NCBI RefSeq assembly: GCF_001577265.1
Contig: NZ_CP014517.1
Coordinates: 4,190,501 to 4,254,500 of the forward strand
Direction of reading: 5' to 3'
Length of the DNA: 64,000 nucleotides
Source: Variovorax sp. PAMC 28711
Lineage (GTDB): Bacteria; Pseudomonadota; Gammaproteobacteria; Burkholderiales; Burkholderiaceae_C
The notes beneath the pieces are model-generated. The model was given only the letters and a program-made list of their open reading frames with translations, was not told the origin of the DNA and ran no database searches. Below are positions 3,845 through 60,218 of this stretch, piece by piece (positions within the stretch are counted from its first letter, which is position 1; the number at the start of each line of letters is the position of its first letter). The translations under genes and the position numbers were made by a program.

Positions 3845-6031
<2,187 letters not shown>

Positions 6032-12496: not shown

Positions 12497-13255
12497 ATGA
12501 GCGAATCACCGAATCCCACCCCCTTCGCGCATACCCGCTGGCCTCTGGCAGCGCTGGCGTTGGCGCTTGCATTGAACGGCTGCGGCGCCATGCGAACCAC
12601 GGAGCGCGCCGATACCTATACCGGCAATGAATGGTTGCAATCCGGGACCAATCGTGTCGCCAATCTGGCGCTGCGCGACAACCTGCAATCGGTACGACGC
12701 GTGCAACTCACGCTGTACCGGCGCAACCCGCGCGAGTGGCGCAAATGGGCGCCCAGCGCCGAGGAGGCCATTAAGCGCACCTGGGATGCGGCCCTGCAGG
12801 GCACGCCCTTGCCGGAGTGGCGCGGCACGACGGGCATCGAGGCCATCCGGCTGGCGTTCGACAACGGGTCGCAAGGGTTCCAGGGCGATCGCATCGCGGC
12901 ACTGGTGTACGGCTGGGCCTCCATGCTCAAGCAGGCCAATGGCGACACCTGGGAGCAGAAGATGCTCGACGGCGTCGATGCCGAGAACGCCTACCGCGCA
13001 GCGCGCAACTTCGAAATCTCGTTGTGGCTGCTCGGCTCCAAAAGCGGCGCCGATGGCCAGCCGCTGCTGCTCGCCACCGAGATCAGCGAGCGCGGCCGCA
13101 ATCTGGTAGCCGACCGTGAGCTCTCGAAAGTCACCGCGCGGCTCGATCTGATGGCGGCGCAGGCCGATGAAAAGTACCGGCGGGCGGCGCTGGATTTCAG
13201 CCAGAACTGGATTCTGGGCAGTCTCGGCCCCCTGATTGCACTGACCAAACCTTAG
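12497..13255 (+). CDS. Hypothetical lipoprotein divergent from smc
   Basis: 252 residues. A signal peptide ends in lipobox LNGC (Cys28). The mature protein has an Arg/Trp-containing stretch (LYRRNPREWRKWAPSAEEAI) and is mostly helical by composition, ending in FSQNWILGSLGPLIALTKP. An upstream in-frame GTG at 12488 is possible, but the ATG at 12497 gives a better signal peptide. Probably attached to the outer membrane; family not recognised. Confidence 0.7.
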   Translation: MSESPNPTPFAHTRWPLAALALALALNGCGAMRTTERADTYTGNEWLQSGTNRVANLALRDNLQSVRRVQLTLYRRNPREWRKWAPSAEEAIKRTWDAALQGTPLPEWRGTTGIEAIRLAFDNGSQGFQGDRIAALVYGWASMLKQANGDTWEQKMLDGVDAENAYRAARNFEISLWLLGSKSGADGQPLLLATEISERGRNLVADRELSKVTARLDLMAAQADEKYRRAALDFSQNWILGSLGPLIALTKP

Positions 13256-17085: not shown

Positions 17086-18176
<1,091 letters not shown>

Positions 18177-22236: not shown

Positions 22237-23187
22237 CTAATTGTTTGAATATGGCGTTTTTCGCATAACGACCGGCGTCGGGGTGTGCGGCTCGTCGGCG
22301 TTGAGGTGCGCCGCCAGGAAGTCGATCAGATGGCGCACGGCCGGCATCAGCGCGCGGCGCGCCGGGAAGACGCAGTGCGAAATCGCGGGCGGCAGCCCCC
22401 ATTCGGGCAGAAGCGTGACCAGACGACCGGCGGCGAGGTCGTCGCGGCACATGTAGTCGGGCAGCATCGCCATCCCGATGCCGTCCAGCACCGCGAAGCG
22501 CACCGTCGCCAGATCATCGACCAGATAGCGCGGCGCGGCCGTGTGCGAATACACGGCACCGTTGGGCCCCTCCAGGCGCCAGGTCGAGCGGCCGTCGACG
22601 GCCGACATCGCCACCGCATCGAGCCTCGCGAGATCGGCCGGCACGCTCACCGGCCCCTGCCGCGCGATCAGATCGGGCGCCGCGACCAGCAGCCCGCGAC
22701 TCAGGCCGAACGATTTCGCCACGAGTGTCGTGCTGTCCTCGATCACGGGCCGCACCCGCAGCGCCAGGTCGACGCCCTCTTCCACCGGATCGACCGGCCG
22801 GTTCAACACGCGCATGTCAACCTTCACCAGCGGATAGCGGCGCATGAATTCGGGGAGCAACGGCCCGACGGCGCTCTGCGCCAGCGTGACGGGGCAGCTG
22901 AAACGCACCGTGCCGCGTGGCTCCGTCTGCACCTGGGCGACCGCCTCGGACGCCGCCTGCGCCGCATCGCGCATGGCGGCGCAATGGCGAAGGTAGATCT
23001 CACCGGCCGGCGTAAGCGACAGGCTGCGAGTGCTGCGCTGCATCAGTTGCACGCCGAGCTGGGCCTCCAGCTCCGCGACGCGGCGCGAGAGGCGCGACTT
23101 GGGGATGCCGAGTGCCCGGCTGGCCGCCGCGAAGCCGCCACGCTCGGCCACCTCGGCGAAATAGACCATGTCGTTGAGGTCTTGCAT
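22237..23187 (-). CDS. LysR-family transcriptional regulator
   Basis: 316 residues: N-terminal winged HTH (MVYFAEVAERGGFAAASRAL, then GIPKSRLSRRVAELEAQLGV) and a substrate-binding domain. It is transcribed divergently from azoR across 126 bp and lies 63 bp upstream of the peroxiredoxin gene on its own strand, so it may control either. The inducer is unknown; related regulators often respond to electrophiles or quinones. Confidence 0.88.
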   Translation of the reverse strand: MQDLNDMVYFAEVAERGGFAAASRALGIPKSRLSRRVAELEAQLGVQLMQRSTRSLSLTPAGEIYLRHCAAMRDAAQAASEAVAQVQTEPRGTVRFSCPVTLAQSAVGPLLPEFMRRYPLVKVDMRVLNRPVDPVEEGVDLALRVRPVIEDSTTLVAKSFGLSRGLLVAAPDLIARQGPVSVPADLARLDAVAMSAVDGRSTWRLEGPNGAVYSHTAAPRYLVDDLATVRFAVLDGIGMAMLPDYMCRDDLAAGRLVTLLPEWGLPPAISHCVFPARRALMPAVRHLIDFLAAHLNADEPHTPTPVVMRKTPYSNN

Positions 23188-53735: not shown

Positions 53736-53811
53736 TCCTCGATAGCTCAGTTGGTAGAGCGCCGGACTGTTAATCCGTAGGTCCCTGGTTCGAGCCCAGG
53801 TCGAGGAGCCA
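53736..53811 (+). tRNA. tRNA-Asn (GTT)
   Basis: 76 nt. Acceptor TCCTCGA pairs with TCGAGGA; D-arm GCTCAGTTGGTAGAGC; anticodon stem around GACTGTTAATCC with anticodon GTT; T-arm GGTTCGAGCC; CCA is encoded. The last seven bases GGAGCCA are repeated at 59911-59917. Confidence 0.97.
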
Positions 53812-55155
53812 ATGATGTACGGAGCTGGGCACTCTTGTAGTGCCCAGCTCGCTACTCCCAGCAGCTGCAGCTAGCAGCGTCGCTTTTTTCCCCTGCATCG
53901 TCACCATCTTTCCGTCGAAGCGAATCTCGCCGACGAACTCATGCAGGTAGCGTTTCGAGAAGCCGCCCTCCCGGTCTGTCAGGCGCGCACGTAGCGCAGC
54001 GCCAAACGCTTCGAGCTTCTTCGAGGACAGTGCAGCGACCGGCATTTCCTTGCTTCGTCGAGCTCCAGCCATTTCCAGCAAGACCGCATCGCGCCGTGAC
54101 TTCAGCTTCTGAGCCCGGCTGCGCAGCATGTCGTCCATAGGCAGCAGGTCCTTCTCCACCGCGTCGTAAAGGCGGTTCGTTGCCGTCTCCAACTCGTTGA
54201 GCTCCCGCTGGAGCATCCCGATTGTTTCGTCCTGGCGGGAATGAGCGCTCTTGAGGTGCCCTTTCATTTCACGCAGCATTTCTTTCAGGCGCTCTGGCGT
54301 GAGCACCTTGTCCGCAAACGCATCGAGCACGAGGCGGTCCATTTTTTCCATCGGCACAGCTGGGGTGCAGCAAGCGCCCGAGCTTTGGCCGATCCGCGTG
54401 TTGCACTTGTAGTAGCGATACCGCCCGCCTTTTCCGGTGGCGGTGGTCATTCCTGCGCCGCAGTTGGCGCAGCGTAGCAACCCGGTCAGCAAGGTCGGGC
54501 TGCTGACGACGCGAGCCGGTGTCACTGCAGGCGAGCGCTCATGGCGCTTACGCGCGACTTCCATGAATACCGGCTTAGCAATGAGGGAGGGAATGCTCAC
54601 CACTACCCACTCGTCCTGTGGCTTGAGCTCGTTGGTGCGCATGTTCTTCTTGTTGAAGATTCGGTCACCGACGTATGCCGTATCGCAGATCAGTTGGTGA
54701 ACGCGTGTCCGGGTCCACTTAGCGCCACGCAACAACACTCCGCGCTCGTTGAAGTAGGCCGCGATCTGCTTGCAGCCCATGTCACGCCCTTGTAACCCCT
54801 GCGAATACAGCTCAAACATCCGGCGCACTGTCGGCGCCTCGGCCTCATCGATGACCAGCCGTTTCTTCCGACCCTTGGCCGCTGGAAGATCGAGCTCCTC
54901 CGTTTTGTAGCCAAAGGGCGGCTTAGACCCGTTGAAGTTGCCTTGACGGGCGTTCTCGTTCATCGCCCGTAAGGTGTGCTTCCCGTTTTCTTTGCTCTGG
55001 TACTCATCGAACATAGAGAAGATGCGGCGCGCCATCTCCCCCGATGGATCGTCGCTGGTCTGCTGGGTGATCGACAGCAGCTTGACGCCCGCCTTGTTCA
55101 GCTTGCGTTCATACAGCGCAAACTCGATGAAGTCGCGGAAGAAGCGCGACAGGCT
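53770..55155 (-). pseudogene. Serine recombinase, C-terminal part (split by IS3 insertion)
   Basis: 461 residues beginning [16 protein letters not shown], then the recombinase domain (GMARRIFSMFDEYQSKEN-like), a four-Cys zinc ribbon (CANCGAGM...YYKCNT...CC) and a C-terminal coiled coil. The final residues LDLGSNQGPTD are encoded on the antisense of tRNA-Asn, so the integrated form reads out of the element into host DNA. Joined with 56477-56710 it would restore a ~539-residue enzyme. Confidence 0.9.
53805..53811. other. Left attachment repeat (attL)
   Basis: GGAGCCA, the tRNA discriminator-CCA end. In the circular form the recombinase frame would pass here into the right-end sequence. Confidence 0.6.
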
Positions 55156-55208
55156 GTGTGAACCGCACCGGGATTTGTGGAGGCTCCACCCTTTGAGAAG
55201 ATGGAGCC

Positions 55209-55532
55209 ATGAACAAGTCGAACAAGTTCTCACCTGAGGTCCGCGAGCGCGCGGTGCGCCTGGTGTTGGAACACCGCGGGGAGTACCCCTCGCTGTGGCT
55301 GGCGGTCGAATCGATTGCCCCGAAGATCGGCTGCGTGCCGCAGACGCTGCTGACATGGGTCAAGCGTCACGAGATAGATTCCGGCGCGCGCGATGGCGTA
55401 ACGACGTCGGAGGCGCAGCGCGTCAAAGAGCTCGAACGCGAGGTCAAGGAATTGCGCCGGGCCAACGAGATCCTGAAGGTGGCGAGTGCGTTTTTCGCCC
55501 AGGCGGAGCTCGACCGCCGATTCAAGTCCTGA
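55209..55532 (+). CDS. IS3-family OrfA (helix-turn-helix protein)
   Basis: 107 residues. An N-terminal HTH of the IS3/IS911 OrfA type ([33 protein letters not shown]) and a leucine-zipper-like tail ([20 protein letters not shown]). TTTTTC at 55491-55496 is the likely -1 slippage site giving the OrfAB transposase. Confidence 0.92.
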
Positions 55533-56437
55533 GAGAGCTCATCGACGAGCATCGCGATACGTTCGGGGTCGAGCCGATCTGCAAGGTTTTGCAGATCTCC
55601 CCGTCCGGGTATCGACGGCATGCGGCGCTTCGTCGCGAGCCGGAACGGCGCTGCGCACGAGCGCAGAGCGATGACATTCTTGCAACAGAGATCAAGCGCG
55701 TCTGGCAAGCCAACATGCAGGTCTACGGCGCCGAGAAGGTCTGGCGGCAGTTGGCTCGCGAAGGCACAGCGGCGGCCCGATGCACGGTTGAACGGCTGAT
55801 GAAACGCCTCGGACTTCGCGGCGTCATGCGGGGCAAAGTCGTACGAACGACGATCAGCGACCGCAGGGCGCCGTGCCCGCTGGACAAAGTCAACAGGCAG
55901 TTCAAGGCCGACAGGCCGAATCAGCTTTGGGTCTCGGACTTCACGTACGTCTCTACCTGGCAAGGCTGGCAATACGTGGCCTTCGTCATCGACGTCTACG
56001 CCAGACGCATCGTAGGCTGGCGAGTCAGCAGTTCGATGACGACAGACTTCGTCCTTGATGCCCTGGAGCAGGCACTGTACGCAAGGCAGCCGGAACGCGA
56101 TCGAAGCCTTGTGGCGCACTCCGACAGGGGCTCGCAATACGTCTCTGTCCGCTACAGCGAGCGGTTAGCAGAGGCCGGCGTGGAGCCGTCGGTTGGCAGC
56201 AAAGGCGACAGCTACGACAACGCTCTGGCCGAGACGGTCAACGGTCTCTACAAGGCCGAATTGATCCATCGCCGGGCGCCTTGGAAGACGAAGGAGTCCT
56301 TGGAACTCGCGACGCTCGAATGGGTGTCTTGGTTCAATCACCATCGACTGCTGGAGCCCATTGGCTACATCCCGCCCGCCGAGGCTGAGGCAAACTACTA
56401 CCGGCATCTCGCCGAGCAGGCCGTCATACCGGCCTGA
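55529..56437 (+). CDS. IS3-family OrfB transposase (DDE)
   Basis: The -1 frame continues from OrfA and encodes the rve/DDE catalytic domain: [14 protein letters not shown] (first D), [10 protein letters not shown] (second D) and [15 protein letters not shown] (E), all intact. No good start codon is seen (a CTG lies at 55529), so it is probably made mainly as the frameshifted OrfAB fusion. Confidence 0.92.
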
Positions 56438-56476
56438 CTTAAACCAACTGGCCTCTACGAAACCCGGTGCGGTTCA

Positions 56477-56710
56477 GTGCACGATGATCGCCGTATAGGG
56501 GGACGGCTTAAGTGTCGCGTCCGCGATCATCTGCTGGAACTCGGGTCGCCGGTCATCGGTGGCAGATGCTCCCGCCTCGATGTACTCCTTGCCGATGGGC
56601 TGGCCGTTGCGCTGGCACCAGTCGCGCATCTGTCGCAGCTGGTCAGGAATCGAGAGATCCTTGTCCGCCTGCTTGGTAGTGGATACGCGTGCATAGAGCG
56701 CAACGGCCAT
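56477..56710 (-). pseudogene. Serine recombinase, N-terminal part
   Basis: 78 codons, MAVALYARVSTTKQ: the nucleophilic Ser is in ARVST. SIPDQLRQMRDWC and EAGASATDDRRPEFQQMI are typical of the resolvase domain. It ends AIIVH at the target duplication; the IS supplies an immediate stop. The upstream 47-residue gene ends 6 bp before. Confidence 0.92.
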
Positions 56711-56716
56711 TTTTCT

Positions 56717-56860
56717 TCACTCCGCGTTGTCCTGCAACGCAATCAAGTCTCTGAGCAACTCGGGCAGCAGATCCGCGAGCAGCTTCATCTCGCGCGCTGT
56801 CACCGGAGCATCGTCTTCGAGATCTACAACGACCTCAAGGTGGTGCGTGGGTTCTTTCAC
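56717..56860 (-). CDS. Small ORF coupled to the recombinase (47 residues)
   Basis: Begins at GTG (MKEPTHHLEVVVDLEDDAP), with GGAGG about 9 bp upstream. Its start overlaps the preceding gene's stop (GTGA), and it stops 6 bp before the recombinase ATG. Acidic and Leu-rich (MKLLADLLPELLRDLIAL). Function unknown; the tight coupling suggests a helper of the recombinase. Confidence 0.6.
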   Translation of the reverse strand: MKEPTHHLEVVVDLEDDAPVTAREMKLLADLLPELLRDLIALQDNAE

Positions 56861-57090
56861 TCATTGGGCACCTCCTTCCTTTGCACGTATCGGCCTGCCC
56901 TGTCCACACCTCCATCCCTCTCAACCATCAACCGCTCCAAATCCGTCTCCAGTCCTTCGCGACCGAACTCGTCGAGCAGCAAGCCTCGAAAAGCCCGGAA
57001 CTGCGATTCAGGCAGTGCCGCCTCGGCAATGCGCAGCACCCGGTTCTTGCGATGGTTCAACAGGGCGAGGATGGCAGCAAGGCTCACCAT
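56857..57090 (-). CDS. Small ORF between rep-like and recombinase genes (77 residues)
   Basis: The ATG overlaps the end of the Rep-like gene by 7 bp, and the TGA overlaps the next GTG. The protein (MVSLAAILALLNHRKNRVL) has no recognised domain. Real by operon position and coupling rather than by homology. Confidence 0.55.
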   Translation of the reverse strand: MVSLAAILALLNHRKNRVLRIAEAALPESQFRAFRGLLLDEFGREGLETDLERLMVERDGGVDRAGRYVQRKEVPNE

Positions 57091-58169
57091 TGCCCCAACC
57101 TCATCTGCGTTGCCCGCTTCTCCACGTCCGTGCGCCAGGTCAACGGGTTATGCACAAGGCGAAGCAGAGCATCGAGTTCATCAAGTGCTTCTGCATGAGA
57201 AACCCACGGCAGCCCTCGCCGCACAGCGTCGATGGCAGCCGTGCGTTTCAAATAGCCATCCACACTGGAAGCCAAACGAATCAAGCGTTCTTTGAGCAGC
57301 GCAGCTTGATCGACCTCACGGATGACGCCCTGAGCTGGCAAGTCGTCGACATGGTCCTGCAGCAGCAGCCATAGTGGATGCAGCGGCCACCGCGAGCGAT
57401 TCGAATCGTTCTGCGGGACCCGCAGTGTTGTGTGATCGTGGACGAGATAGCGCAGCACATCGCCTGCGCCGTCGAACAAGTCCTGAAAGCTGCGTATGGA
57501 AAACCGCCGCAAAACGTCCTTGCGGACTTGAAACTCGATGCGCCACACGTTGGCGTTAACGCCTCCCCACAGCTCGTGAAACCAAGTCTTCTGGCTTGCC
57601 TCCTGAATCTCCGCCGACTTGTCGTAAATACGCAGGACGGTATCGCCTTCGCCAAATCGCAGTGTCTGCAAGCGTCGATCCTTGCGGTGCTGTGCGTCCT
57701 TCGCGGCCAGTGTCACGAATGAGTCTTCGTCGAAATCGACCACTGGCAACTCCACGTCAAAGGTGAAATCCACACGCGACAGTGATTCCTCAGGGCCATG
57801 GGACATGCGCACTGCGGTTGCCCAGTCCCGCATCTCGCGATGCAGGGCCTGTGCACCCTTGTGCCATAGCGCGTGACTGCGATACGTCACGTAGAAACCG
57901 GGATTGTTGAACTCGCCGAACTGGATCGCGGCTTCGCCGTTCTCCATCAGGAAGGGATAGCCTGAGCCGGTCCCATGACCGGCGAGCATGAACTCCTTGC
58001 CACCGAGCTCCAGCAGCACGGGATCACGCCGTTTTGAAGCCTTCATCGCCTCACGCTTGGCGCCGATCGTCTCGAAGTCCAGCAGGCAACCGAGCGAGGG
58101 CCGAAAGTAGTAGGCAGCTTCGACGGTGTCGAGGCCGGACAGGAGAAGTCTCACCGCCGACTCTCCCAC
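57084..58169 (-). CDS. Rep-like replication initiation factor
   Basis: 361 residues from a GTG. SRVDFTFDVE and VWRIEFQVRKDVLRRF match segments of the Rep_trans/replication initiation factor family, found in plasmids, filamentous phage and ICE relaxase/Rep proteins. The catalytic Tyr was not pinpointed. Overlaps the RHH-like gene upstream by 19 bp. Probably starts replication of the excised circle. Confidence 0.72.
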   Translation of the reverse strand: MGESAVRLLLSGLDTVEAAYYFRPSLGCLLDFETIGAKREAMKASKRRDPVLLELGGKEFMLAGHGTGSGYPFLMENGEAAIQFGEFNNPGFYVTYRSHALWHKGAQALHREMRDWATAVRMSHGPEESLSRVDFTFDVELPVVDFDEDSFVTLAAKDAQHRKDRRLQTLRFGEGDTVLRIYDKSAEIQEASQKTWFHELWGGVNANVWRIEFQVRKDVLRRFSIRSFQDLFDGAGDVLRYLVHDHTTLRVPQNDSNRSRWPLHPLWLLLQDHVDDLPAQGVIREVDQAALLKERLIRLASSVDGYLKRTAAIDAVRRGLPWVSHAEALDELDALLRLVHNPLTWRTDVEKRATQMRLGQW

Positions 58170-58597
58170 TCTCTCGCCTGCTCAGCGTCCATCTCATCCG
58201 CCGTCATTTCCTCAATGACGACCAGCTCGGTTTTAAAGAACTTCTCGGGTTGATCGTTGCCCAGATCCTTCTCCAGCTCAAGGTAATGCTTGTTCGTGAG
58301 AACTTGAAAGCGGCCGATGGGCCCGACCTCCTCGAACACCTTTACCGTCGGCCCATCCGGCGTGCCGATGCGGTCGATTTGTCGGCCCGCGATGGATGGA
58401 AGCGCAGATGCCAAGTCCTCGAGCGCAGTGGACAGCAGATCGCCAACGATCTGCGTCCGCGTCTTGGTTGGGTACATCTCGGCGATGGCCGCAAGCTTGG
58501 CGGCCACGTGGACGGGGAGGCGAAAGGACGACTGCTTGGAAGTGAGTCGCGTGTTGTCTGGCGCGGACCAGACCGAGTGGAGCTGCTTTGACTTCAT
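58151..58597 (-). CDS. RHH-like DNA-binding protein
   Basis: 148 residues. SSFRLPVHVAAKLAAIAEMY, then TRTQIVGDLLSTALEDL, looks like a ribbon-helix-helix domain; the rest is acidic. As the first gene of the element's operon it probably regulates the operon or copy number. Confidence 0.6.
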   Translation of the reverse strand: MKSKQLHSVWSAPDNTRLTSKQSSFRLPVHVAAKLAAIAEMYPTKTRTQIVGDLLSTALEDLASALPSIAGRQIDRIGTPDGPTVKVFEEVGPIGRFQVLTNKHYLELEKDLGNDQPEKFFKTELVVIEEMTADEMDAEQAREWESRR

Positions 58598-58610
58598 GAA
58601 AACCTTCCGG

Positions 58611-58636
58611 ATGTTGCGACAAGTGTTTCACAACAT
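58611..58636. promoter_or_regulatory. ATGTTG-N14-CAACAT dyad upstream of the RHH-like gene
   Basis: Perfect 6-bp arms lie 13-39 bp before the start codon, in AT-rich DNA, a natural place for autoregulation by the RHH-like protein. Inference. Confidence 0.35.
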
Positions 58637-58792
58637 TTTTTTGAATGTCAATCATAATTTGGCTTCGGCCGGGTACGGGTTGCCCACCGCGTCGGGCGCG
58701 CGTGCGGGAGTCGCAAGCGCCGCCCACCCACCCGCCGCCGTGGACAACCCTACAAGTGCGGAGTTACGAAACACATAGAAACAAGTAGGATG

Positions 58793-58832
58793 CCCGTTTT
58801 GTACCCGTAGACCCCCGTGTTACATAAACGGG
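58793..58832. promoter_or_regulatory. CCCGTTT / AAACGGG dyad upstream of the cargo gene
   Basis: A 7-bp perfect inverted repeat with a 26-bp spacer, 25 bp before the cargo ATG. It could be an operator or a leader stem. Inference. Confidence 0.3.
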
Positions 58833-58857
58833 ACCGTTTTCACCTAAGGCACAGTAA

Positions 58858-59859
58858 ATGGCTCAAATCAACATCAGAATAGAAAATCAACTGAATGCCG
58901 TAGGCGACGAAGTTTCCGCATTGATTGCCGTTGTCAGGCCAATTCTTCAAGGGCTTTTGTATGCTCTTAAGCATGAAGTTGTTGCAGAAGTGGGAGGTTT
59001 TGAGAAAGTCAAAGTGCTAATGCTTCCCCGCTTATACCGGCCAGGAGACGGTGACATCGGAATATGCTTTGAATATGCAGTTCACGACGCCGTAAAACGA
59101 AAAGATGCAAAGGTGGTTGAAAAGATTCAAGATGCCATGCAGAAGCACTGTAAGGTTCCTGGAAAAAAATTGGCATCAATCCTTTTTGGAGCCGAGAAAA
59201 GTGGTTCTCTTAGACTTATAGACACTGCGCACGACTTATTGACCGATGAATCAAGATTGCTGACCGGCGCCCAAGCGCAACCACCGAAACTAAAGCGCTA
59301 CATCAACCAACTTGCAGCAGCCTTTCGACGACCCACCACCCGACTCTATTTGCCCGCGAGCATTAGTGGCGCTTGGAAGGCAGACCTTTTTCTTGGCATG
59401 ACCGACTCTGACAGGTGGGTTGGAACGACAGTCAAAATTAATCCAGCGCAGCTAGAAGGTGCTACGGGTCTAAGAGTCGGCATAGTTCCTTCTCGTCAAG
59501 GTGGCAGCGATAAAATTATATTAGATGGCGCAAAGAATTTAATTGTTTGCCCACTGCCATATGACGCCGCCTTCATGGAATTATTCTATTCGGCTTGGAT
59601 AATCGTTCAGCAATTCATCGCTGCCGACGCAAAACTTCCAAAAGAAGCTTCGCTCCCGACAGCTCCCCAACGAATGGTCGCTCGATTATTAGAGGAGCGT
59701 AGAAACTTTCCGTTAGTTGATGTGATCGAAGCGCTACAACCTCTTGCACAGCCCGAGCTTTTGGAAACATCGCCGAAAGAAAAACCTGCCGAATCGAAAA
59801 GAGAAGAAGAAGCGCTTGTGGACACTCTGATAGCACCCGTATCACGAGTGCTTACTTAA
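58858..59859 (+). CDS. AT-rich cargo gene of unknown function
   Basis: 333 residues, with RBS TAAGG 8 bp before the ATG. Codon and base usage are far more AT-rich than anything else in the window. The middle part is distinctive: KADLFLGMTDSDRWVGTTVK, then KIILDGAKNLIVCPLPYD and FMELFYSAWIIVQQF. The acidic and Lys residues around GTTVKIN could belong to a nuclease-like fold, but this is not demonstrated. It is the only cargo of the element, so a defence or addiction role is possible. Confidence 0.75.
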   Translation: MAQINIRIENQLNAVGDEVSALIAVVRPILQGLLYALKHEVVAEVGGFEKVKVLMLPRLYRPGDGDIGICFEYAVHDAVKRKDAKVVEKIQDAMQKHCKVPGKKLASILFGAEKSGSLRLIDTAHDLLTDESRLLTGAQAQPPKLKRYINQLAAAFRRPTTRLYLPASISGAWKADLFLGMTDSDRWVGTTVKINPAQLEGATGLRVGIVPSRQGGSDKIILDGAKNLIVCPLPYDAAFMELFYSAWIIVQQFIAADAKLPKEASLPTAPQRMVARLLEERRNFPLVDVIEALQPLAQPELLETSPKEKPAESKREEEALVDTLIAPVSRVLT

Positions 59860-59910
59860 AAGACTAGGCGTTAAACTGCACCACCCAGTTCTCAGCATCG
59901 CTTGCGCTGG

Positions 59911-59917
59911 GGAGCCA
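59911..59917. other. Right attachment repeat (attR)
   Basis: GGAGCCA, identical to the tRNA 3' end at 53805-53811. Host sequence with a terminator follows. Confidence 0.55.
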
Positions 59918-59940
59918 TACACAAGCCGCATGGCCACTGG

Positions 59941-59974
59941 AAAGCCCGCTATTTAATCGATAGCGGGCTTTTTT
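59941..59974 (+). terminator. Rho-independent terminator, probably the original tRNA-Asn terminator
   Basis: GCCCGCTAT and ATAGCGGGC, 7-base loop, then six T. It lies 24 bp past the right attachment repeat. Confidence 0.9.
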
Positions 59975-60218
59975 CCTTTTGGACGGCAAAGTCGAGTCGT
60001 ATCACGATTCATGTCACCACCCATTGATGGCGCCCGCGTGTGAATTTGGCAGCGGTGAGGACACCCCCGTTTGGAACGATGTGTGTCAGAACCCATTGGT
60101 CCCAACGAGCGACAGCACAGGGCACAAGCCGCGCTCGGTGCTCAAACGAATACTCCCCAGCAACGACGGCTGGCCGAGCAGCCGCAGCAGCCATCGCGAA
60201 CGCTCCGGCCTACAGAAA
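59975..60218. other. Gene-free stretch with probable IS debris
   Basis: No intact gene is seen. The run containing GGTGAGGACACCCCCGTTT recalls the outer ends of IS66-family elements, and the adjacent sequence holds an IS66 transposase remnant. Confidence 0.4.

Follow-up and report, generated by a model that had tools for sequence, protein, structure and literature searches.

What becomes of a recombinase gene whose reading frame runs out of a mobile element and into the tRNA gene next to which that element sits? The question is raised by a locus of Variovorax sp. PAMC 28711, within a 64,000-nucleotide stretch that was analyzed as a whole and is here called the window (positions 4190501–4254500 of the single 4.32-Mb contig NZ_CP014517.1, from the same family as Rhodoferax genome G294). 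The initial annotation of the window placed a tRNA-Asn-associated element between two GGAGCCA repeats and held that the C-terminus of its recombinase is remade on excision. On comparison with related genomes and proteins we consider it almost certain that there is such an element and that rejoining its ends would remake the C-terminus, and highly probable that the locus as a whole is best explained as a small integrative element with its own serine recombinase and a remade tail. The arrangement is not peculiar to the window but common to a large recombinase clade. That the change of tail also acts as a switch has, in our estimate, about an even chance.

Ends of the element and the empty tRNA-Asn site

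The element spans from the GGAGCCA at 53805, the 3' end of tRNA-Asn, to the GGAGCCA at 59911. The repeat had been taken to mark both ends, a claim of which the ends stood and the argument did not. In the window GGAGCCA is found at 17639, 53805, 55203 and 59911 and, as TGGCTCC, at 22918; five copies over two strands are about what chance yields for a 7-mer in 64 kb, so that the repeat alone is no evidence, and it was ruled out as a stand-alone argument. The ends are upheld instead by empty sites in the same genus, in which 19 tRNA-Asn loci were read (L004, with an unmatched tRNA pattern, was left uncounted), taking the best site per locus and the 95% shuffle level as threshold. In 15 of the 18 counted loci the DNA that immediately follows tRNA-Asn is matched by the 62 bases beyond 59917, and in only one by the 62 bases inside the left end, used as control. 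The three loci that do not match the DNA beyond 59917 are L014, L017 and L018, the last being the one whose sequence fits the left interior better. We read a tRNA-Asn gene joined directly to such DNA as the empty site, the kind of arrangement that the initial annotation had named as a check in other strains. The same core and ends recur in two close and mutually independent elements, L022 in Polaromonas (right end at 4050) and L033 in Rhodoferax (right end at 12730), each with tRNA-Asn opposite. The two features by which a tRNA-integrated element is recognized, an intact tRNA gene when occupied and an empty tRNA site in relatives, are both present.

A recombinase with a second, predicted C-terminus

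PF00239, PF07508 and PF13408 were found on the two pieces of the window's recombinase, searched separately; R8 and the catalytic serine S10 are invariant among its relatives, and the recombinase profile matches the YokA, TP901-1 and A118 structures. Its domains and catalytic serine thus identify the gene as a putative large serine recombinase (serine integrase). It is in two pieces by virtue of an IS3-family insertion sequence (IS), overlooked in the initial annotation, which cuts the gene after approximately codon 78. Split in this way, the window copy cannot make an intact enzyme and is inert in cis. The insertion itself holds one of the GGAGCCA copies, that at 55203.

As it stands in the chromosome, the recombinase frame runs antisense into the tRNA, as had been described, and ends ...VHHWLLDLGSNQGPTD. 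In-frame reading from the right-hand core gives the tail WLPSASDAENWVVQFNA instead, with its stop at 59864–59866 of the minus strand, four bases by eye from the convergent cargo stop at 59857–59859. This compact tail-to-tail fit had been put forward as strong support for the boundaries; the gap is real, it is weak evidence on its own, and we dropped it as a strong argument. The events would be as follows. A small integrative element of 4.8 kb, not counting the IS, would have entered tRNA-Asn at its 3' end by means of a large serine recombinase of its own. The gene for this enzyme would span the attachment site of the element (attP), and the crossover would fall within the shared TGGCTCC. On the circle the gene would close with a short native tail (W-x9-W, then 6–8 residues) supplied by the element's other end. 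Integration would separate the gene from this native end, upon which it would read some 41 bases of antisense tRNA and stop at the antisense of the anticodon loop, with the tRNA remaining whole, and excision would give the recombinase back its native end.

Related recombinases were matched in 6 of 399 genomes of the family, 20 of 399 of the order, 4 of 369 of the class and 2 of 101 of the genus, the latter two, at 1e-60, being that of the window and another with 37% identity. These genome sets overlap and, with three further loci, give 33 loci. In 23 of them, as in the window, the recombinase open reading frame (ORF) continues in antisense into a tRNA 3' end that is complete (Asn 13, Arg 5, Ser 2, His 1, Glu 1, Thr 1); that of L059 passes right through the tRNA. 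At six loci (L024, L039, L044, L046, L050 and L055) the antisense tail lies on a tRNA that, by eye, is cut short close to its anticodon loop, as though another island, crossing over at that point, had displaced both the 3' half and the serine element. The remaining loci comprise L047, cut by a contig end, L035, on a circular contig, and L027 and L058, which are without a C-terminus. With the truncated tRNAs and the one contig end included, tRNA targeting amounts to 30 of the 33 loci. Among plasmid and phage matches, tRNA fusion was examined in two, and the recombinases of S. meliloti pSymB (42% identity) and of a faecal phage scaffold (39%) likewise run antisense into tRNA-Arg and tRNA-Asn, respectively. 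A scan of viral contigs gave three distant relatives at 27–31% identity.

The same holds at the protein level. Of 224 distinct homologues (the best 120 of 3088 plus the best 120 of 2472 matches, a set in which P0067, from the window itself, and some of the 33 loci are included), 201 end in an antisense T-loop motif and 4 in WGG, the tRNA-His form, making 205 antisense-tRNA ends by motif; 4 are of circle type, 9 are other and 6 have no anchor. The anchor, W526, is the complement of the tRNA CCA, and all 42 recombinases that were aligned have it. The antisense tail behind it varies in length with the tRNA (13, 9, 14, 3 residues and more).

Evidence for the remade C-terminus comes from right ends, from proteins and from one joined site. 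The right ends of the Polaromonas and Rhodoferax elements predict the tails WLPYPGHAENWSVVMSIN and WLLVTCDAENWELGFSIT, and two metagenomic recombinases carry circle-type tails as written, WLPEAVDSENWQIEFTA (P0007) and WLPGNVESENWELVLIP (P0009); the window's predicted tail agrees with that of P0007 at 10 of 17 positions by eye. At L037:7019 a recombinase C-terminus and a right arm stand joined as attP in genomic DNA, reading ...VPTSSIGWGAGRDEDANWSASLVP / ...KKVGTARVPTSSIGWGAGRDEDANWSASLVP, each followed by a stop. In these relatives the core thus lies inside the integrase frame, with another C-terminus in the excised form, as is characteristic of an attachment site within an integrase gene. Contig G157:C43 (42,410 bp), which overlaps itself by 141 bp exactly and so closes as a circle, carries a recombinase (31% identity) that reads on into a non-tRNA tail ending WLPELVLLRTKTVEFKLPPRFYRKRLAA; no tRNA was found in the 20 kb scanned, and from its ORFs it is probably a phage. 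A second tail type, ...LRT...RLAA, is seen in P0027, P0059 and L035:1998, on a circular contig; its sharing by P0027 and P0059 perhaps stems from tandem elements, and in a scan of 15 regions for LRT tails L035 was again the sole match with a TGGCTCC core.

Right arms were then collected by scanning 27 oriented regions, 443 kb together, for [GEDA][NH]W and 3–12 residues behind it, features that are preset and hence not findings. The scan gave 14 matches on the plus strand versus 5 on the minus strand, used as control, and a mean of 1.85 in 20 Markov replicates. Leaving out L071:8245 (a duplicate) and L075:2715 (without core), and adding the one convincing new end, L069:15669, from a mirrored-arm search of the 16 regions without a right end (in which L073, L074 and L075 yielded no recombinase tail), we arrive at 13 right arms whose tails are in frame, from 11 of the 27 regions, and, together with four proteins, at 17 circle tails. 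Two features were left free by the pattern. Position 4 behind the second W is occupied by L, I, V, M or F in 17 of 17 tails (6 of 17 in other frames), and the stop follows 6–8 residues after this W in 16 of 17, at 11 in L069 (0 to 110 codons in other frames). For the DNA arms, none of 4000 random draws attained either result, a probability not to be taken literally since the arms are related and three come from one contig. These three, L037:662, 2404 and 7019, are tRNA-His-type right arms on a single 14-kb contig, which suggests tandem elements.

Genes carried by the element

The features of the locus are listed in Table 1. Between the CCA end of tRNA-Asn and 59911 the minus strand holds genes for a 148-amino-acid (aa) protein and a Rep_trans-like protein, followed by two small ORFs and by the large serine recombinase, directed toward the tRNA, and the plus strand holds a single cargo gene besides the IS. 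The 148-aa protein has no family match and by eye looks like a small DNA-binding protein. Its neighbor belongs to a family in which PF02486 (Rep_trans) is matched by 8 of 9 members with a best E value of 6.9e-07, the window member scoring 17.4, below the cut-off of 29.6; it would be a weak candidate for the relaxase that an integrative and mobilizable element needs for conjugative transfer. Directly upstream of the recombinase lie the small conserved ORFs sm1 and sm2, both candidate directionality factors, with relatives in 7 and 4, respectively, of the 26 loci searched. The cargo protein shares 56% identity with a hypothetical protein from Pseudomonas phage AUS531phi, has 2462 homologues at 1e-5 and perhaps has a role in defence. 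PADLOC returned no match for the three proteins submitted to it. Other cargo occupies the same end in related elements, namely, a CAP12/Pycsar Toll/interleukin-1 receptor (TIR) effector (L033:12993-14246), HicA/HicB (L022:4921-5639) and an HNH endonuclease (L069:15805-16506).

Table 1. Features of the tRNA-Asn locus, in window coordinates
Feature	Position	Strand	Basis
tRNA-Asn (GTT), putative integration target, bacterial attachment site (attB) half kept intact	53736..53811	+	ARAGORN
Recombinase, C-terminal piece (Resolvase end, Recombinase, Zn ribbon), antisense into tRNA-Asn	53770..55158	-	
Left core copy GGAGCCA, CCA end of tRNA, left attachment site (attL)	53805..53811	+	
Inverted repeat GAGCTGGGCACT-N5-AGTGCCCAGCTC, left attP arm, within recombinase coding region	53822..53850	.	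by eye
IS3-family insertion sequence, two transposase ORFs (HTH_Tnp_1, rve), 3-bp duplication GTG	55159..56476	+	
Recombinase, N-terminal piece, ARVST motif with catalytic serine	56477..56710	-	
sm2, 47-aa ORF, GTG start, candidate directionality factor	56717..56860	-	coordinates by eye
sm1, 77-aa ORF	56857..57090	-	
Rep_trans-like protein (replication initiator or relaxase-like)	57084..58169	-	weak match
148-aa protein, first gene of conserved operon	58151..58597	-	
Cargo gene, family phrog_30306	58858..59859	+	
Right attP arm; from TGG 59915-59917 encodes predicted circle-form tail and stop	59864..59917	-	
Right core copy GGAGCCA, right attachment site (attR)	59911..59917	+	
Native DNA 3' of tRNA-Asn, with terminator-like inverted repeat	59918..59979	+	

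Switch, by-product or neither

The empty sites, the clade-wide antisense fusion, the conserved circle tails, the joined attP and the circular contig have to be weighed against several contrary points. The window's own recombinase is broken, and for the window's own element neither excision nor a circle has been observed. The gene in which the joined attP at L037:7019 lies is a frameshifted remnant whose frame is open from 6899 onward only. The right-arm pattern is by itself not clean, with [NH]W and the 3–12-residue limit set beforehand; 16 of the 27 regions yielded no right end, some being too short and some perhaps having theirs beyond 20 kb; and, with three arms on one contig, the 17 tails are not independent. 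Part of their conservation is that of DNA: read outward, the left arm carries in several members a motif such as AATCTGGGCACT, 11–22 bases from TGG, which is mirrored in the right arm about the fourth or fifth base of TGGNN (by eye), and relatives have a mirror copy of the GTGCCCA half of the window's inverted repeat in their right arms. Finally, in AlphaFold models of one circle-tailed and one tRNA-tailed recombinase both tails have a predicted local distance difference test (pLDDT) score below 50, with predicted template modelling (pTM) scores of 0.36 and 0.37, and a folded role for either tail is therefore not supported.

That the tail change alters the enzyme is suggested by phage Mx8 (see below) and by the coding pattern of the circle tails. 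Most likely, competence for integration would then lie with the circle form, and the form with the tRNA tail would be attenuated or would need a directionality factor. In its fullest version, to which we give slightly less than an even chance, the clade, a widespread one, would be dedicated to tRNA 3' ends and have moved among Asn, Arg, Ser, His, Glu and Thr, each integrase gene being completed on the circle by the conserved peptide and in the chromosome by T-arm and anticodon-loop antisense, with the state of the element written into its enzyme as a one-step latch and the integrated form, attenuated, awaiting sm1 or sm2. Nearly as plausible, if appreciably short of even, is a neutral by-product, in which attP lies at the gene end for DNA recognition, any open tail suffices and both forms are equally active. 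The mirrored recognition motif, which right-arm conservation partly tracks, the predicted disorder of both tails and the fact that antisense tails are set by the tRNA sequence, and hence cannot be selected as protein, all speak for it, whereas the hydrophobic fourth residue and the narrow stop position lie behind the DNA motif and are unlike other frames. It is quite improbable that selection acts on the antisense-tRNA tail as the functional one and that the circle tail merely serves to bridge a short extrachromosomal stage: integrated copies do dominate databases (205 versus 4 tails among the 224 best homologues), yet the antisense tail varies with the tRNA whereas the circle-tail pattern is constant across tRNA types. 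An ancient stretch of the genome in which a resolvase gene has been hit by an IS, with no defined mobile element and GGAGCCA by chance, would fit the chance frequency of the 7-mer and the broken recombinase and is scarcely credible in view of the empty sites, a close recombinase in just one of 101 genus genomes (the window's own, besides the 37% relative) and the core and ends that the Polaromonas and Rhodoferax elements share with it.

Exchange of an integrase C-terminus has precedent, as described in the portions of the literature available to us. In streptococcal rumA integrative and conjugative elements (ICEs) the attachment site lies in the serine integrase gene and integration swaps its 3' part with that of the target; a functional difference between the two integrase forms is suggested by the authors (PMC4701971). 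As in the window clade, the C-terminus is a different one after excision; integration is into a protein gene, rumA, and a conserved circle tail is not mentioned in the text available (PMC4701971). In Dehalococcoides ssrA islands the serine recombinase DsiB overlaps attL and runs antisense into the transfer-messenger RNA (tmRNA) gene, with its stop only outside the island, and full function possibly only on the circle is suggested (PMC3146451). DsiB thus resembles the window clade in running antisense into a structural RNA gene and differs in its tmRNA T-loop target, its CcrB-like enzyme and its small partner DsiA, no circle tail being shown in the accessible part of the report (PMC3146451). 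Phage Mx8 has attP in its integrase gene, like the window clade, and on integration trades a 112-residue tail for 13 residues, with altered activity or specificity, but its enzyme is a tyrosine recombinase (PMC6070905, PMC4701971). The Islander study (2014) noted that Mx8 and SSV integrases extend across attP and that serine integrases were not known to target tRNA genes (PMC4383910). The window element shares with Islander-type tRNA islands a tRNA gene left intact after integration; contrary to that statement, serine integrases of its clade appear to target tRNA genes.

The principle is known, since C-terminal exchange has been published for rumA ICEs, a change of activity for Mx8 and, for DsiB, the idea of full function on the circle alone. 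New, as judged from sequence, would be the broad tRNA-targeting serine recombinase clade, its spread and its conserved circle-only tail; we found no description of such a clade with this tail in the open-access literature available to us, and an earlier description elsewhere is possible. Antisense-tRNA fusion accounts for many of the recombinases that databases annotate with ...GSNQGPTD-like ends. If our reading is true, the clade offers serine integrases for tRNA sites, and the tail swap, if it changes activity, would be a natural directionality switch written by recombination itself.

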